Assembly (NCBI GenBank): GCA_021821565.1
Contig: JAKACI010000091.1
Span: 1 to 6,238, forward strand
Direction: 5' to 3'
Origin: a bacterium
GTDB lineage: Bacteria > SZUA-79 > Acidulodesulfobacterales > Acidulodesulfobacteraceae
DNA: 6,238 nucleotides
This document shows, one piece after another, positions 173-6,203 of the stretch. The notes below the pieces were generated by a model, which saw only the letters and a program-made list of their open reading frames with translations, was not told the DNA's origin and searched no databases. Made by a program: the position numbers and the translations under genes. Every line of letters starts with the position of its first letter. Positions within the stretch are counted from its first letter, which is position 1.

Positions 173-469
173 TTAATATAATTTTTTAAAGACCTGATTA
201 TGAGTTCCTAACGCCGCAAGGTAAAGAGCTTGAGACTCCGTATCTATTTTAAAAATTAATAACCAATCGTTTTTTATATGAATTGTCTCGTAGGCATTAA
301 AATTGCCTTTTAAGTTATGTCTTTTATATATTAAATCTATATCTCTCTCTTCTTGCAGATTAATAATTATACTTTTGAGTGTTTCAAAATCTAATTTTGA
401 ATATTTGCCACTAACCTTATCTCGTTCTATATCCTTTTTATAACGCTTTTCAATTCTTATTTTTAACAT
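173..469 (-). CDS. yafQ: YafQ-type mRNA interferase toxin (RelE superfamily)
   Basis: This 98-residue protein has the RelE/ParE size and fold pattern and is closest to YafQ. It carries the whole catalytic set known from E. coli YafQ (His50, His63, Asp67, Trp68, His87, Phe91). The matching residues here are H51 (YKRHNLKG), H64 and D68-W69 (IHIKNDWLLIFK), H90 (GTHNQVF) and F94. YafQ enters the ribosomal A site and cuts mRNA at lysine AAA codons followed by A or G; that is family knowledge and was not tested here. With all these residues present the toxin looks intact. Its ATG lies 20 bases after the antitoxin stop. No Shine-Dalgarno is visible in that AT-only spacer, so translation probably depends on coupling to the antitoxin, which keeps toxin below antitoxin. 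folE2 follows directly. Confidence 0.92.
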   Translation of the reverse strand: MLKIRIEKRYKKDIERDKVSGKYSKLDFETLKSIIINLQEERDIDLIYKRHNLKGNFNAYETIHIKNDWLLIFKIDTESQALYLAALGTHNQVFKKLY

Positions 470-489
470 TTAATATTAAGGAATAATTT

Positions 490-744
490 TTAAATGCCGA
501 GTTTTTTGAATAAGTCTTCTGCTGTATTATATGTTTCGGTATTTATATCGTTTTCTAAATTCTCGATTCGTTTTTTGACATCCTCGGAAGGCAATGCTAA
601 TTCAAACGGAATTTTTTTTTCGATAGAAACCACTGCTAAAAATAAGTTAACGGCATCTCCTAGACTTAATCCTAGCGCATCAAAAACTTCTTTAGAACTA
701 TTATAAAATTCATTATCTATCCTCACGCTTGTTTGTCTTTTCAT
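490..744 (-). CDS. dinJ: DinJ/RelB-type antitoxin, ribbon-helix-helix
   Basis: This 84-residue antitoxin is the partner of the YafQ-like toxin just downstream. Residues 1-45 form a ribbon-helix-helix DNA-binding domain: a beta strand KRQTSVRID, then helices around NSSKEVFDALG and SLGDAVNLFLAVV. The following KKIPFEL matches the family's ALPF.L junction. The C-terminal tail ends NTAEDLFKKLGI, nearly the same as the end of E. coli DinJ (DADDLFDKLGI), the part that wraps and inhibits YafQ. The antitoxin-first gene order is typical. A strong Shine-Dalgarno, GGGGGAG (positions 757-751), lies 6 bases before the ATG, in contrast to the toxin, which has none. Autoregulation is likely because an inverted repeat overlaps the promoter -10 box. 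A run of nine A on the coding strand (plus-strand T9 at 612-620) lies inside the gene. Confidence 0.92.
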   Translation of the reverse strand: MKRQTSVRIDNEFYNSSKEVFDALGLSLGDAVNLFLAVVSIEKKIPFELALPSEDVKKRIENLENDINTETYNTAEDLFKKLGI

Positions 745-815: not shown

Positions 816-2249
816 TTATCCTTTTATAATTCTTGGAGTAATGAAAATTAGCAGTTCATCTTTTGAATAACTAATATTCCTTGATTTGAACAACCACCCT
901 AATAGCGGAATATTCATAAGTCCGGGTATGCCGCTTGTAGATATATTTTTACTCAACTGGTAAACTCCGCCTATTACTACCGTGTTATTATTATTAACTA
1001 TGACTGTAGAATTTGCGCTTTCCGTGTCTAAAGTCGCCTGGGCTCCGGATACGGGAGGCGCAACAGAATCATTTGAAGAGTTAATAGTTAACTTAATGCT
1101 GCCGTTTGACATAATATGCGGCGTTATTGAAAGAGAAATCTGGGCTGTTATTGCCTGAGGAGCCGCAACCGCTCCAACGCCTGCAACGGAAGGCAAATAT
1201 AACGTCTCGCCTTTTGCAATAGTTGCGGTTTGATTGTTAAGGACGACAACTTTTGGCGATGCCACGTCTTTAGCTTTAGCTAAACTCTCCAATGCTTCCA
1301 ATGTTGCTGTAATGCTTGCATATTGATTTACTATTCCCACTGAAAAAGTTCCGGGGGAAGGGGTAGTAATTTTCGGCACTCCTGCCGTAGGAGCTATCAA
1401 ACCAGGACCTGAAGGAGTACCTGCTAACTGCCCCGCAAAATAGTTAGGAGAAGCAGCCATATCAGTATTTGTAGGAGCGGCGGCACCATAACCGCCTTCC
1501 CAGTTAATTCCTAATTGGGTAGTGTATGACCGGCTGACTTCTACCATCTTAGCGACAATTTCAACTTCAGGAGTTCTTTCATCAAGTTGTTTTACAAGAT
1601 TTTCGGCTTTTATAACATTTTTTCTAATATCTGTCACAATAAGCGCATGCATTGATTTATCGACCATCACCGTGCCTTCGGGACTCAACACTGTTTTTAC
1701 TTTTGACATTAAACCTGCGACGCTGACATAATTCACGGGAATAACTTTAGTTATTTTATGTCCCGATATTGCCTTTGCTTTTTTTTGGGCAGAAATAACG
1801 GAAGCAATAGAGCTTGATGAATTAATATAATAGATACTGTCTTTTTTAACTATTCCCAGCCCGTATGCGTCCAATATAACAGAAAATACGTCTTTTAACG
1901 GAACATTATGCATTTTCATTGTTACTGTGCCTTTTACATTAGAACCTATCAAGACATTCATATCTGAAACTTTTGCTATCATCCGTATAACATCTACTAA
2001 ACTGGCATTTTGAAAATCAAAACTGACATTCATAGTCGCGGGGTCAACAAATAATTTTCTAACATGTTTTGAATTAGTATGTTTTGAATTTTTTAATGCA
2101 AAGACCGTATTTGCAAATGAATTTGTCTGGAGTGAAAAAAATATTAAAAGCATAGCCAAAAAAACTACCGTGAAAAGTAAAATGAAATTGTTTTTATTTT
2201 TCTGTTTTTTTATAACTTTTATAATTTTATCTCTGCTTTTTTTATTCAT
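816..2249 (-). CDS. pilQ: Type IV pilus secretin PilQ, short form without AMIN domains
   Basis: A 477-residue secretin, the outer-membrane ring through which the pilus leaves the cell. A very basic N-terminus (1-21) and a hydrophobic stretch (FILLFTVVFLAMLLIFFSL, about 22-40) form a long signal sequence. An STN/N0 domain (about 73-142, SFDFQNASLVDVIRMIAKVS) comes next. A secretin N1-type domain follows (about 165-222, KVIPVNYVSVAGLMSKVKTV then ALIVTDIRKNV.K). The C-terminal secretin channel domain (about 228-475) has ASPKVVVLNNQTATI, TVVIGGVY, GIPGLMNIPLLGWLF and ELLIFITPRII. PilQ proteins are often 600-750 residues with AMIN domains that bind peptidoglycan; none is seen here. ATG 2249 is preferred over an upstream in-frame GTG at 2267 because GGAGG (2258-2254) lies 4 bases before the ATG and would fall inside the longer frame. 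It is the last gene of the operon. HofQ/MshL-like secretins are alternatives, but the pilMNOP context favours PilQ. Confidence 0.93.
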   Translation of the reverse strand: MNKKSRDKIIKVIKKQKNKNNFILLFTVVFLAMLLIFFSLQTNSFANTVFALKNSKHTNSKHVRKLFVDPATMNVSFDFQNASLVDVIRMIAKVSDMNVLIGSNVKGTVTMKMHNVPLKDVFSVILDAYGLGIVKKDSIYYINSSSSIASVISAQKKAKAISGHKITKVIPVNYVSVAGLMSKVKTVLSPEGTVMVDKSMHALIVTDIRKNVIKAENLVKQLDERTPEVEIVAKMVEVSRSYTTQLGINWEGGYGAAAPTNTDMAASPNYFAGQLAGTPSGPGLIAPTAGVPKITTPSPGTFSVGIVNQYASITATLEALESLAKAKDVASPKVVVLNNQTATIAKGETLYLPSVAGVGAVAAPQAITAQISLSITPHIMSNGSIKLTINSSNDSVAPPVSGAQATLDTESANSTVIVNNNNTVVIGGVYQLSKNISTSGIPGLMNIPLLGWLFKSRNISYSKDELLIFITPRIIKG

Positions 2250-2262
2250 TTTTCCTCCGGTT
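2250..2262 (-). promoter_or_regulatory. Ribosome binding site that sets the pilQ start
   Basis: On the minus strand CCGGAGGAAAA lies directly before ATG 2249, with GGAGG at 2258-2254. It is one of the few strong Shine-Dalgarno sequences in this AT-rich window. It favours the ATG over the GTG 18 bases upstream, which has only AT-rich sequence in front of it. Confidence 0.7.
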
Positions 2263-2307
2263 CTCACGTATATAGATGTATAAATATAATATTAATATAT
2301 AAATATT

Positions 2308-2396
2308 ATTTCTTAATCTTATTGTATATTATTTTATTGCATGTTTCTTATTTTATTGCATATTATTTTATTTCATATTTCTTAGTTTATTTCATA
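2308..2396. repeat. Degenerate tandem repeat spanning the 3' end of pilO::pilP and the gap to pilQ
   Basis: Two tandem 34-base units (2329-2362 and 2363-2396) match at 30 of 34 positions. Each unit contains two copies of a 14-base core TTATTTTATTKCAT (starts 2329, 2348, 2363, 2382; the 2382 copy has TTAG). A further degenerate half-copy lies at 2308-2328. Read on the coding strand the cores are ATGAAATAA or ATGCAATAA, and the first one is the actual Met-Lys-stop end of pilO::pilP. The array therefore looks like repeated duplication of the gene's last codons into the spacer. The remaining pilQ leader (2250-2307) is almost pure A/T and holds a weak 8-base inverted repeat (2286-2293 with 2302-2309). 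No convincing terminator or separate pilQ promoter was seen. Confidence 0.8.
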
Positions 2397-3517
2397 CTCA
2401 TTACATAATTAATAGCATGCATTTGCCCTAGTTGGTTATATGTTTTTTCTGTTAAAACTATTGAATTATTTGTAATATTTATTATTCTTGCTCTATTGAC
2501 TCCCATAATAGAACCTGCGGTTACTATATAAGACCTTCCGTTCGGAGTTGAAACCATAGCAAAGTATTTTCCGTCTCTTTCCATTATACCTACAATATGA
2601 AGAGACGACAAACTGTATTGAAGAAGAGGAATTTCACCGTACTTAAACGACATATTAGGTTTTTGAGTATATAAAAATGTTCTGAACGGATTTCTTAGTA
2701 AATTATACGGATAAGGATTTATATTTAAATTCTTATTCTTATAATTCAACTTTTTTATTTTTTGTTTATTGCTGTTTTTATTGTTATTTTTGTTATTTAT
2801 ATTGTTATTATCGTGTGTATTATATTTATATTTATATTTATATTTATATTTATATTTTAATTTATTGGCAGCCGGCATCGGCGATATTTTAGATTTAGTT
2901 TTATATTTTATATTTTTGTCGTATTTTATTTTATCGGCTGTAAAATTCGGCAAAGCTCCTATAAATGAAAAAGTAGTGCCTTCAAAACTTATGATAATTT
3001 TATGATGCTTTGAAGAATTTCCGGTTATAGACACATTATGAACGTCAACAATTCTGTTCATATCGGCAAGTTTATAAAAAAACTTATAAACATTAAAAAA
3101 AGAACCGCTAATATTCATTGAAAAAGGAACTTCTTCATAGAAACTTTTAGGCGCAACTATGCCGGGTTTAAACATATCCAAATTTAAATGCAGGGTTTTA
3201 ACATAATTTGAAACTTGCATTAAAAGACCCGGTATATTTTTTTTTGACGGAAGTTCGGTCAACAAGCTTAAAAATTCTATATCAAGTTTTTTCTGTTTTT
3301 TTATCAGAGCAGGATAAGTTCTAACTTCCGACAGATACGAAGCGTATCTTGTTTTAACAATATTAAGCGAAGACTGCTTCTGGTTTAAGGAAGTTTTTAA
3401 GGCGGTAAAAAACATAAAATAATAAATCGCTATTATAGCAATAAAGATAGCTGCGCCTATAACCACTCCTAAGAACGTCTGATTTTTAAAATTCACATTT
3501 TTAATATCTAAATTCAT
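2387..3517 (-). CDS. pilO: PilO-PilP fusion protein of the type IV pilus alignment complex
   Basis: One uninterrupted 376-residue frame holds two proteins that are normally separate. Residues 1-190 are PilO: a short cytoplasmic start, a membrane helix (about 17-38), a coiled-coil stretch (40-80), then the periplasmic core with LLTELPSKKNIPGLLMQVS, the PFSMNISGSFFNVYKFFYKL segment and IVDVHNVSIT. Residues 276-376 are the PilP beta-rich domain: RNPFR, LLQYSLSSLHIVGIMERDG, FAMVSTPNGRSYIVTAGSIM and INITNNSIVLTE. Between them lies a linker (about 191-275) rich in Lys, Asn and Tyr, including (Lys-Tyr)6 at 221-232. PilP is usually a separate lipoprotein; here there is no second signal or lipobox, and the PilO helix would anchor both. 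Both parts would be periplasmic, so the topology is consistent. The start lies 7 bases after the pilN stop, with only a weak Shine-Dalgarno. The fusion would couple PilN/PilO to the PilQ secretin. Confidence 0.9.
   Translation of the reverse strand: MNLDIKNVNFKNQTFLGVVIGAAIFIAIIAIYYFMFFTALKTSLNQKQSSLNIVKTRYASYLSEVRTYPALIKKQKKLDIEFLSLLTELPSKKNIPGLLMQVSNYVKTLHLNLDMFKPGIVAPKSFYEEVPFSMNISGSFFNVYKFFYKLADMNRIVDVHNVSITGNSSKHHKIIISFEGTTFSFIGALPNFTADKIKYDKNIKYKTKSKISPMPAANKLKYKYKYKYKYKYNTHDNNNINNKNNNKNSNKQKIKKLNYKNKNLNINPYPYNLLRNPFRTFLYTQKPNMSFKYGEIPLLQYSLSSLHIVGIMERDGKYFAMVSTPNGRSYIVTAGSIMGVNRARIINITNNSIVLTEKTYNQLGQMHAINYVMSMK
2821..2856. repeat. Perfect hexanucleotide microsatellite (TATATT)6 inside pilO::pilP
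   Basis: Six exact tandem copies of TATATT on the plus strand are read on the minus strand as AAA TAT codons, giving (Lys-Tyr)6 at residues 221-232 of the fusion linker. Because the unit is 6 bases, gain or loss of copies keeps the frame and changes linker length by two residues each time. The adjoining 2771-2815 is an imperfect TTGTTATT-like low-complexity stretch encoding the Asn-rich segment. Confidence 0.95.
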
Positions 3518-3524
3518 AACAATC

Positions 3525-4136
3525 TTAAGGTCGTTTTACAATAGGTTTTTTTATTATATTTTTAGGTTTAAGTTTTTTATATTTGCTCTCCATCGTAAAA
3601 CTAAAATTTTGGAGCTTTAAATCCTGTTTTTTAGTTTCCGCAGTTTGTATTAAATTTATAGAATGAAAAAAACCTGTTCTTTTTATTTTTTTCATAAACA
3701 TTGATACAACCTGACCATCCAATGCAACCCCGCTAATACTTATATTTCCGTTATCTGATTTTAAAGAGCTTAACCATGCAAATTTTGGTATGGCGCTTGT
3801 AAGAGAAAAAGTGTAACCTATCGGACCTTGCTGTTCCTTTTTTAATGTCTTTATTATATTAATTTTTTGGAGTATCTGACTTTGCACTTTTCTAATTTCA
3901 ACAACTTTTTGAACTTTAGGCATCAAAACAGAAATTTTTGAATCGTATGAAAATATATTATTAGTAACATTATGTATTTTATTTTGCATAAAAGACTGCA
4001 TAAAATAAATTGAAGCGGCAGCCGCTACTATCGGAACAATTAAATAAGGAATAAAGAACATAATACTGCCTTTATCAACATTTACCTTAAATTTTTTTGA
4101 TTTTGGTTTTTTATTGAGATTTATTTTTATAATCAT
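3525..4136 (-). CDS. pilN: Type IV pilus inner-membrane alignment protein PilN
   Basis: This 203-residue bitopic membrane protein starts MIIKINLNKKP, the conserved short cytoplasmic peptide (INL motif) that in PilN inserts into a groove of PilM. One membrane helix follows (about 25-47, IMFFIPYLIVPIVAAAASIYF). A coiled-coil segment (about 50-100) comes next, then a ferredoxin-like periplasmic domain (about 104-184) with the family's SLTSAIPKFAWLSSLKSDNG, ISISGVALDGQVVSMFMKK and FFHSINL. It would pair with the PilO part of the next gene product. The last 19 residues form a strongly basic tail (YKKLKPKNIIKKPIVKRP), a little longer than usual. Its ATG overlaps the pilM stop as ATGA, and an AGAGGA Shine-Dalgarno lies within the pilM 3' end, so translation is probably coupled. 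The identification is secure from motif and position together. Confidence 0.94.
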   Translation of the reverse strand: MIIKINLNKKPKSKKFKVNVDKGSIMFFIPYLIVPIVAAAASIYFMQSFMQNKIHNVTNNIFSYDSKISVLMPKVQKVVEIRKVQSQILQKINIIKTLKKEQQGPIGYTFSLTSAIPKFAWLSSLKSDNGNISISGVALDGQVVSMFMKKIKRTGFFHSINLIQTAETKKQDLKLQNFSFTMESKYKKLKPKNIIKKPIVKRP

Positions 4137-5203
4137 GGCTCTAATCCTCTAACTGTCAAACCTACCGCAACCCCGAACAGAGAAGATTTTGATTCGATAA
4201 AATTAGTATCGCTTATATTGTGATTAAATACTATTTTTCTAAATGGATTAATTATTGAAACAGGTATATTTAGTTTGGCTTCTATATCTCCAGAAAGTCC
4301 CGAAAGCATAGCAGACCCTCCCGTAATAAATATTTTTTTCGGATACTGTTTGTCGTTATTGGCGGCAAAATAGTCTATAGTTCTTTGTATCTCCGATGTT
4401 ATTCTTGTAACAATCATATTTATATATATCATATAATTGGTTTTAAAATTTTCGTCTCTCTTTTCAATACCGCCTGTCTTAATGTTTTCAGCTTCATTAA
4501 AATCCATCTGAAATTTTTTTGCTATTTCTTCGGTAATATTAACCCCTCCGATAGGTATATCTCTTCTGAATAGATTAAAGCCTTTATTCACTATATGAAC
4601 ATTTGTTTCTGTTGCGCCTACTTTTATAATACCCGTAATCTGGTCGGTTTCTTCGGGATAATTGAAATTAAACATATTTTCCGTCGCAATACAATCAACA
4701 TCTACTATAGGCGAATGCAATCCGCACTCGTTTATTAAATCAACTCTGTCATTTATAATATCTTTTTTACCTGCAATAATCATTATCAGGCTGCTGCCTG
4801 CATCCGCAGCGGAATCTCCTAATATCTCATAGTCAAACGATACTTCATTAATATCGTAAGTTATATACTGCTGCGCTTCATAAAAAATAGCGGGTCCAAG
4901 CTCGGATTCTTTCATTTTGGGCATATCTATATTTTTTACGATAACATGCTTACATGGAATTGATATTATAACATTTTTTTCTTTAATATCATGATTTGCA
5001 AAAGAACTTTTAATATATGAAACTGCCGAGGCATGGTCTTTTAAAAAACCGTCTGCAACAATTCCGCCTGGAAGGTCAATTAAATCAATTGAATCTATCG
5101 TGTATTTACTGACGGATTTAGATAATTCCAATATTTTTATAGAACTGTATCCTATATCTATACCGACTATTCTCTTTGAGGATAAATTAAATTTAAACGC
5201 CAT
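4133..5203 (-). CDS. pilM: Type IV pilus assembly protein PilM, actin-like ATPase
   Basis: This 356-residue cytoplasmic protein has the FtsA/actin-like fold, and PilM binds the cytoplasmic tail of PilN to form the base of the alignment complex. The phosphate-1 motif is RIVGIDIGYSSIKILEL (11-27), the hallmark PilM start. MPKMKESELGPAIFYEAQQYI (about 94-114) is the characteristic PilM segment. Phosphate-2 is IIKVGATETNVHIV (192-205). An adenosine-type motif IFITGGSAMLSGL lies at 291-303. The length is typical. One oddity: position 194 is Lys where PilM and actin-like proteins usually have Asp (DIGA). It is the first gene of the operon, with a moderate AGG Shine-Dalgarno about 9 bases before the ATG and a promoter candidate about 70 bases upstream. 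Its stop overlaps the pilN start by 4 bases. Confidence 0.95.
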   Translation of the reverse strand: MAFKFNLSSKRIVGIDIGYSSIKILELSKSVSKYTIDSIDLIDLPGGIVADGFLKDHASAVSYIKSSFANHDIKEKNVIISIPCKHVIVKNIDMPKMKESELGPAIFYEAQQYITYDINEVSFDYEILGDSAADAGSSLIMIIAGKKDIINDRVDLINECGLHSPIVDVDCIATENMFNFNYPEETDQITGIIKVGATETNVHIVNKGFNLFRRDIPIGGVNITEEIAKKFQMDFNEAENIKTGGIEKRDENFKTNYMIYINMIVTRITSEIQRTIDYFAANNDKQYPKKIFITGGSAMLSGLSGDIEAKLNIPVSIINPFRKIVFNHNISDTNFIESKSSLFGVAVGLTVRGLEP

Positions 5204-5459: not shown

Positions 5460-6203
5460 ATGAGCAAAAATAAATTAATCACAAACATTTTATTTGGATT
5501 CTTAATTGTTTTATTTGTTTTTAGAATAATTTTCATTAATCAAATAGACCTCATTCCTGAAGAAACATACTACTGGCAATGGTCGCGCCATCTTTCGCTT
5601 TCGTATTACGATATGTCTCCTATGATAGCATACATAATTGCATTAACAACTTTTTTCGGGAGGCTTAATTCTCAATTTTTTGTCAGGTTAGGCGCCCCAA
5701 TAATTTCATTGCTTATTTCTCTATTTGTATATTTTATGTTACAAAAATTAACATCCAGCAGAATATACAGTTTGGGGGCTGCAGTTCTACTTAATATTAT
5801 ACCTATATTTAATATAGGGTCTATTCTCATAGTTTACGGCGATGCTCAGCTTTTATTTTTTTCTCTTTCAATTTTTTTTTTAATTTATCTAATTGTATCT
5901 AAAAAAGATTACTATATTTATTTAATAGGAATGTCTGTTGGATTTGCTCTCCTAAGTAAATATACCGCCGTGTTTTTATATCCCGTCGTTTTTTTATTCT
6001 TCCTTTTTAGCAATAATTATAGAAAATATTTATTTAAAAAAGAACCGTATATTGCTTTTTTAATATCTTTGATTTTATTTTCTCCAGTTATTGTATGGAA
6101 TTACTTAAATGATTATGCATCCTTAAAACATTTATTCGCTTTATCAGGTAATTACGTAAATTTTAATACATTTATTTATAATATGTTTTTATTTATGAGT
6201 TAA
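5460..6203 (+). CDS. ArnT/PMT-like membrane glycosyltransferase, truncated by an early stop
   Basis: The 247 residues match the N-terminal half of the GT39/GT83 (dolichyl-mannosyltransferase/ArnT-like) family, which moves a sugar from an undecaprenyl-linked donor to an acceptor such as lipid A or protein at the periplasmic face. After a first membrane helix (about 7-27) comes the acidic first loop LIPEETYYWQWSRHLSLSYYD (E34/E35; other members have DE). The following PMIAY, VRLGAP, LLNIIPIFNIGS and VYGDAQLLFF (D128, the second conserved acidic residue) are family segments, as are ALLSKYTAVFLYP and ILFSPVIVWNYLNDYAS. Several membrane helices are evident. Family members are usually 450-550 residues, so about half is missing. 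The TAA at 6201-6203 appears to interrupt a frame that otherwise continues to the window edge, so this may be a pseudogene. A T10 run lies at 5872-5881. The donor and acceptor cannot be told from sequence. The start has no Shine-Dalgarno. Confidence 0.82.
   Translation: MSKNKLITNILFGFLIVLFVFRIIFINQIDLIPEETYYWQWSRHLSLSYYDMSPMIAYIIALTTFFGRLNSQFFVRLGAPIISLLISLFVYFMLQKLTSSRIYSLGAAVLLNIIPIFNIGSILIVYGDAQLLFFSLSIFFLIYLIVSKKDYYIYLIGMSVGFALLSKYTAVFLYPVVFLFFLFSNNYRKYLFKKEPYIAFLISLILFSPVIVWNYLNDYASLKHLFALSGNYVNFNTFIYNMFLFMS

Follow-up and report, generated by a model that had tools for sequence, protein, structure and literature searches.

The 6,238-nucleotide stretch of DNA analyzed here (the window) encodes a natural fusion of the pilus alignment proteins PilO and PilP. 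Judged from its sequence, the fusion very probably fills the roles of PilO and of PilP together in the alignment complex of a retractile type IVa pilus. Comparison of genes and genomes indicates that the fusion is real and conserved in its clade of uncultivated acidophiles, and it is a further, clade-wide case of a fusion type that has already been published.

PilO and PilP domains in one reading frame

The fusion gene, designated pilOP here, and its neighbors are located as follows.

816..2267, minus strand: pilQ secretin gene (PF00263, E 1.9e-41; TIGR02515 at 282.3 bits, just below its cut-off of 284.35)
2387..3517, minus strand: pilOP, PilO-PilP fusion gene (376 aa, ATG start, uninterrupted ORF)
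2423..2773, minus strand: PilP domain by Pfam, residues 249-365 (PF04351, E 3.5e-13)
2693..2962, minus strand: linker, residues 186-275 (90 aa, with 23 Lys/Arg, 3 Asp/Glu and 20 Asn)
2820..2865, minus strand: hexanucleotide-type repeat in the linker, encoding (Lys-Tyr)n (TRF)
2960..3385, minus strand: PilO domain, residues 45-186 (PF04350, E 6e-25)
3416..3481, minus strand: N-terminal hydrophobic helix, residues about 13-34 (Kyte-Doolittle; helix in the structure model)
3525..4136, minus strand: pilN (PF05137, E 1.8e-13; no NCBIfam match)
4133..5203, minus strand: pilM (PF11104, E 4.7e-67; TIGR01175 over its cut-off)

Both Pfam profiles scored above their curated cut-offs in this single 376-aa frame: PilO, behind the N-terminal membrane helix, at 88.5 bits (cut-off 22) and PilP, as the C-terminal beta domain, at 50.2 bits (cut-off 25.6). 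In the NCBIfam scan, the sole match was pilP_fam, below its cut-off. The preliminary description had called PilO and PilP as one protein at 2387-3517 on the minus strand, and both its coordinates and its domain calls were right; the profile check that it proposed for the C-terminal part of the protein returned PF04351 at residues 249-365. A profile search also matched PilO chains of known structure (3jc8_Oa, 2rjz_A, and 5uvr_A). The AlphaFold2 model of the whole fusion was poor (pLDDT 60, pTM 0.31), with low-confidence stretches at residues 106-128 and 183-295, a helix at residues 13-66, and a confident part at about residues 301-376 in the PilP domain (pLDDT 83-90). Foldseek matched this model to solved PilO and PilP chains, the latter in 2lc4, 2y4x, 2ivw, and 4av2. 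No PilO-PilP contact could be read from the AlphaFold models, which are weak outside the PilP domain.

The N-terminal helix of the window fusion reaches a 17-residue Kyte-Doolittle mean of 3.01, compared to at most 1.36 after residue 60. This helix is the only strongly hydrophobic stretch in all eight fused proteins (means of 2.5-3.2 versus at most 1.39 in the linker and PilP parts) and therefore must also export the PilP half.

pilN and pilM lie upstream of pilOP and pilQ lies downstream, all on the same strand, so that the proposed reduction of the alignment complex to four genes is borne out by a pilM-pilN-pilOP-pilQ cluster. The window PilQ contains N0, STN, Secretin_N, and Secretin domains in the Pfam scan, which gave no match to an AMIN domain. 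At its edges, the window holds other genes. A YafQ-type toxin gene (173-469, minus strand; PF15738, E 2e-19) and a RelB-type antitoxin gene (490-744, minus strand; PF04221, E 2.5e-12) sit between pilQ and the start of folE2 (window 1 to about 165; family assigned by PF02649 in locus L001), and this pair is absent from between pilQ and folE2 in loci L001 and L002. A PMT_2-type glycosyltransferase frame (5460-6203, plus strand) ends after 247 aa, compared to 515-516 aa in L001 and L003, and inspection by eye of the last bases of the window revealed no continuation in another frame.

Distribution of the fusion and trees of its carriers

A protein search returned 33 homologues; both domains are present in 11 of them, and the other 22 have PilO alone. 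One fused protein (P0007, 363 aa) comes from Candidatus Acididesulfobacter guangdongensis; Acididesulfobacter is placed in Candidatus Acidulodesulfobacteriota by NCBI, and we infer this phylum name for the compared genomes. PF04351 was found at one place each in 27 of 30 genomes of the phylum, fused in 7 and split in 20, and was not found in G011, G019, and G024, perhaps as a result of incomplete assemblies. Each of the seven fused relatives thus has a single PF04351 place at E up to 0.001, and G001 and G002 also have one at E up to 10. A hidden separate pilP, which would have undermined the preliminary description, is thereby rejected for the fused relatives.

When the fusion was mapped onto phylogenies, as had been suggested, the fused genomes formed one group. 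RpoB was found in 21 of the 30 genomes, including five of the seven fused genomes, and these five make up one side of a branch with support of 100/100, adjoined by the split genome G003. A second tree combined PilN, PilQ, and the cores of PilO and PilP in 28 rows; some of these rows lack PilQ or PilN or have only part of it. In this tree, the eight fused rows, including the window, formed one group at 100/100 next to G003, and the window was nearest to G008 (93% identity) and G004. The end branch of G003 is long (0.4), and the placement of G003 therefore leans on agreement with the RpoB tree. The two trees are most simply read as a single fusion within the clade.

Among the split relatives, the distance between pilO and pilP runs from a 4-nt overlap to a 73-nt gap. 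The nearest unfused relative in both trees, G003, carries its genes (L003 8001-8594 and 8623-9108) at the same place in the cluster as the fusion. It differs in having two genes 28 nt apart and a PilP with its own hydrophobic N-terminus.

Unfused PilP proteins of the phylum and the lipid anchor

Characterized PilP is described as an inner-membrane lipoprotein in the available text of two papers (PMC4471445, PMC3724824), and the preliminary description had proposed that a covalent tether replaced both the lipid anchor and the disordered arm of PilP. The PilP domain is internal to the fusion and has no N-terminal lipoprotein signal, which lowers the case for a lipoprotein PilP but not for a PilP domain. 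However, the unfused PilPs of the same phylum also failed to show a convincing lipobox ahead of the PilP motif: a strict pattern matched 0 of 20, and a loose pattern matched one (G016, L030, residues 5-8, ahead of the hydrophobic stretch) and none of the other 19. These proteins start with a hydrophobic N-terminus, which by eye reads as a Sec-type signal. Because unfused PilPs of the phylum lack a convincing lipobox, an acyl anchor had probably been missing already when the fusion arose, and we rejected the idea that fusion caused the loss of the lipid. As for the disordered arm, it did not just disappear: its place is taken by a linker that is longer and of low model confidence. Lipobox-like N-termini were seen by eye on PilPs from genomes outside the phylum (L043, L045, and L052).

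Pilus type and a second, unfused system

Models for PilB and PilT, the extension and retraction ATPases of a type IVa pilus, scored over their cut-offs in all seven fused genomes and in G003, and thus both ATPases are present in 8/8 relatives. All seven fused genomes also encode a second, unfused PilO. In G005 (L032 4780-9128), this PilO has PilM-, PilN-, and secretin-like neighbors, and the position of PilP is taken by a 125-aa protein whose T2SSC match (E 0.0018) lies below cut-off. Homologues of pilM, pilN, and pilQ occur in the corresponding stretches of G001 and G003. Such a second PilM/N/O-secretin operon was observed in L032 (G005) and also in L031 and L033. By these profile matches, the second system is unfused, diverged, and without a second PF04351 pilP.

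The linker and alternative readings of the fusion

The linker of the window fusion has 90 residues when counted from the end of the GTTFSF motif (residue 185) up to NPFRTF at residue 276; the preliminary description had given 85. In the eight fused genes (the window and seven genomes), the linker ranges from 73 to 132 residues with a net charge of +8 to +24, and it is Lys/Asn-rich and of low confidence in the structure model. TRF reported periods of 12 and 18 with 92-94% matches for the (Lys-Tyr)n repeat, whose whole-unit changes preserve the frame. Protein-guided dN/dS values for the linker, which presuppose the frame, were 0.11-0.46 and below 1 in 8/8 pairs; in the same pairs, PilO gave 0.10-0.19 and PilP 0.05-0.12, so that the linker is looser than both. 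Open frames as long as the linkers occurred in at most 0.2% of 2000 draws of a first-order Markov simulation for each of the eight fused genes, and in 0 of 2000 draws for the window's own linker. In frame-blind nucleotide alignments of the linkers, gaps indivisible by three occurred in four of six pairs; they lie between repeats, whose placement is beyond this kind of alignment. Our reading therefore follows the protein-guided values, by which the linker evolves as coding DNA, although the purifying selection may reflect frame-keeping alone.

As we picture it, the PilO helix would set the fusion protein in the inner membrane in an N-in/C-out orientation and, because there is no second hydrophobic stretch, would carry the PilP domain into the periplasm. 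The PilO part would pair with PilN, the basic linker of 73-132 residues would span to the PilP domain, and the PilP domain would dock on the N-terminal part of PilQ. The fusion probably arose once from adjacent pilO and pilP genes, when the stop codon of pilO and the signal of PilP were lost, with the length of the linker drifting afterwards.

This reading is compatible with a neutral fusion without functional consequence, which differs from it on benefit alone and which we rate at somewhat less than an even chance. Loss of the stop would have been tolerated since PilO and PilP adjoin, and the linker would have grown by AT-biased low-complexity expansion. Asn/Lys-rich low-complexity insertions resembling the linker do occur in unrelated proteins of the same AT-rich genomes, including a FolE2-like protein of 314 aa in L002 (6956-7900), compared to 273 aa in L001, and proteins encoded in L032 (2256-4514 and 4780-6129). 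Moreover, of the 97 genomes with a PilP match in a wider sample, just 8 have the fusion. By contrast, retention of the fusion in all seven clade genomes examined and purifying selection on the linker, even if possibly for frame-keeping alone, argue against a neutral fusion.

Alternatively, the fusion could be made and then cut in the basic linker into free PilO and free PilP, so that fusion would solve export and dosage only. In favor of this are the high Lys content of the linker, its low confidence in the model, and its variable length, as well as the fact that the PilP half could then do without a separate signal; however, no conserved cleavage motif stands out by eye in the linker alignment, and we regard this possibility as unlikely. 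The claim that fusion fixes a 1:1 stoichiometry follows only if the product stays uncleaved, and the same inference is already contained in a published excerpt (PMC3169554). Less likely still is a functional role for the long basic linker, which would act as an electrostatic tether of tunable length, keeping PilO close to PilP across the peptidoglycan of an acidophile, while its hexanucleotide (Lys-Tyr)n repeats would allow length changes in frame.

An internal start in the linker, yielding a separate PilP beside or instead of the fused form, is highly improbable. An in-frame start-like codon does occur at linker residue 188/189 in all eight fused genes (ATG in five and TTG in three), with a purine-rich stretch two bases ahead of it (AGGAG in three and AGGCG in five), and in the window fusion further such codons are ATG at 214 and TTG at 257. 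This reading is disfavored because its product would be without an export signal (hydropathy at most 1.39, versus 2.5-3.2 for the N-terminal helix). In addition, the two-base spacing is short, unfused PilO tails often contain the IG residues behind this AGG as well, and the ATG at 214 is not conserved. Finally, at least two of the clade genomes are metagenome-assembled, but an assembly or sequencing artefact (a missed stop or frameshift) has a negligible chance of being correct and was rejected by conservation and codon evidence, namely recurrence of the fusion, each time with another linker, across 11 protein clusters and seven genomes, and linker dN/dS below 1 in every pair.

Other PilO-PilP fusions and published precedents

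The preliminary description knew of no characterized example of such a fusion, yet PilO-PilP fusions have been in print since 2011. In the available text of Korotkov et al. (2011), a few are mentioned, P. putida Q88CU9 is cited, and the fusions are said possibly to imply a 1:1 ratio (PMC3169554). Among the literature excerpts retrieved for "PilO-PilP", only this paper uses the term for a gene fusion (PMC3169554). In the available text of the paper proposing the order Ca. Acidulodesulfobacterales, there was no mention of PilO or PilP, and pilA was the sole pilus gene mentioned (PMC6776010). As excerpted, Q88CU9 resembles the window protein as a PilO and PilP gene fusion of a type IV pilus system with the same 1:1 inference; it belongs to another lineage (PMC3169554).

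The wider sample comprised 386 genomes, 97 of which have a PilP match at E up to 0.001 (27 in the phylum and 70 outside). The eight fused genomes are the seven in the phylum and G124 outside it. Outside the phylum, we translated all PilP open frames of at least 287 aa plus those of G293 and G157 (20 places) and a second G322 place, and G124 was the one fusion among them. Frames of 245-257 aa in G071, G077, and G335 were not fusions, with PilO in a separate frame; still smaller frames lack the length for two complete domains, and translation of six PilO places with long frames gave no fusions.

The G124 fusion (L038 1702-2658) is compact, with 318 aa, PilO at residues 42-179, and PilP at residues 194-293. 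One of five genomes in its phylum is fused. At least 28 two-domain clusters of this compact family (P0034-P0061) were found among the best 120 of 139 matches. Like the window fusion, the compact G124 family has PilO and then PilP in one frame behind pilM (PF11104) and pilN (PF05137) genes. Unlike it, the compact fusion has 14 residues between its Pfam domains, compared to 62 in the window fusion, or 25 compared to 90 by the motif measure. A search with the PilP region of the window found its own clade only (11/11 matches), and on this ground the two families are most likely independent.

PilP domains were also observed inside much longer proteins with other parts, in L042 (G322), L037 (G061), L047 (G166), and L034-L036. 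The second G322 place encodes a 528-aa protein with its PilP match close to the end, and P0064 (307 aa) is annotated with PilN, PilP, and PilM domains together.

These cases form a natural experiment, which suggests that PilO and PilP can be covalently joined by linkers of 25 residues (compact family) to 132 residues (this clade). The fused lineages appear unrelated, and the neighboring pilM and pilN are kept. Such joining agrees with a machine that contains PilO and PilP in equal numbers, and the natural tether lengths are usable for testing distance and stoichiometry. The idea was published in 2011, in the text available to us (PMC3169554), and what is gained here is further cases and an evolutionary outline: the fusion has one origin in the clade, its sister has split genes, and nothing points to a lipid anchor at the time before fusion.

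Comparison with known alignment complexes

The PilO and PilP of M. xanthus, P. aeruginosa, and N. meningitidis belong to the same Pfam families as the window protein and have the same folds. They differ in being two proteins, with PilP a lipoprotein, as described in the parts of the literature available to us (PMC4471445, PMC3724824). Yeast two-hybrid results for M. xanthus, as excerpted, report PilO-PilP and PilP-PilQ contacts (PMC3724824). The PilP-PilQ contact maps there to the Secretin_N region of PilQ and not further N-terminal, unlike the contact given in the available text of a review, in which the globular domain of PilP binds the secretin N0 (PMC3724824, PMC4471445). The architectural models PDB 3jc8 and 3jc9 together contain 24 PilO and 24 PilP chains. 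A covalent 1:1 link is therefore compatible with the known layout, given these contacts and the equal numbers of chains.

To our knowledge, GspC of type II secretion differs from the fusion in having no PilO/GspM core between its helix and its HR domain. It is like the fusion in being bitopic, with a secretin-binding HR domain that is structurally homologous to PilP, according to the available text (PMC4471445, PMC3169554). Another fusion in this machinery is PulL, which is described as the counterpart of PilM and PilN combined (PMC10191384).
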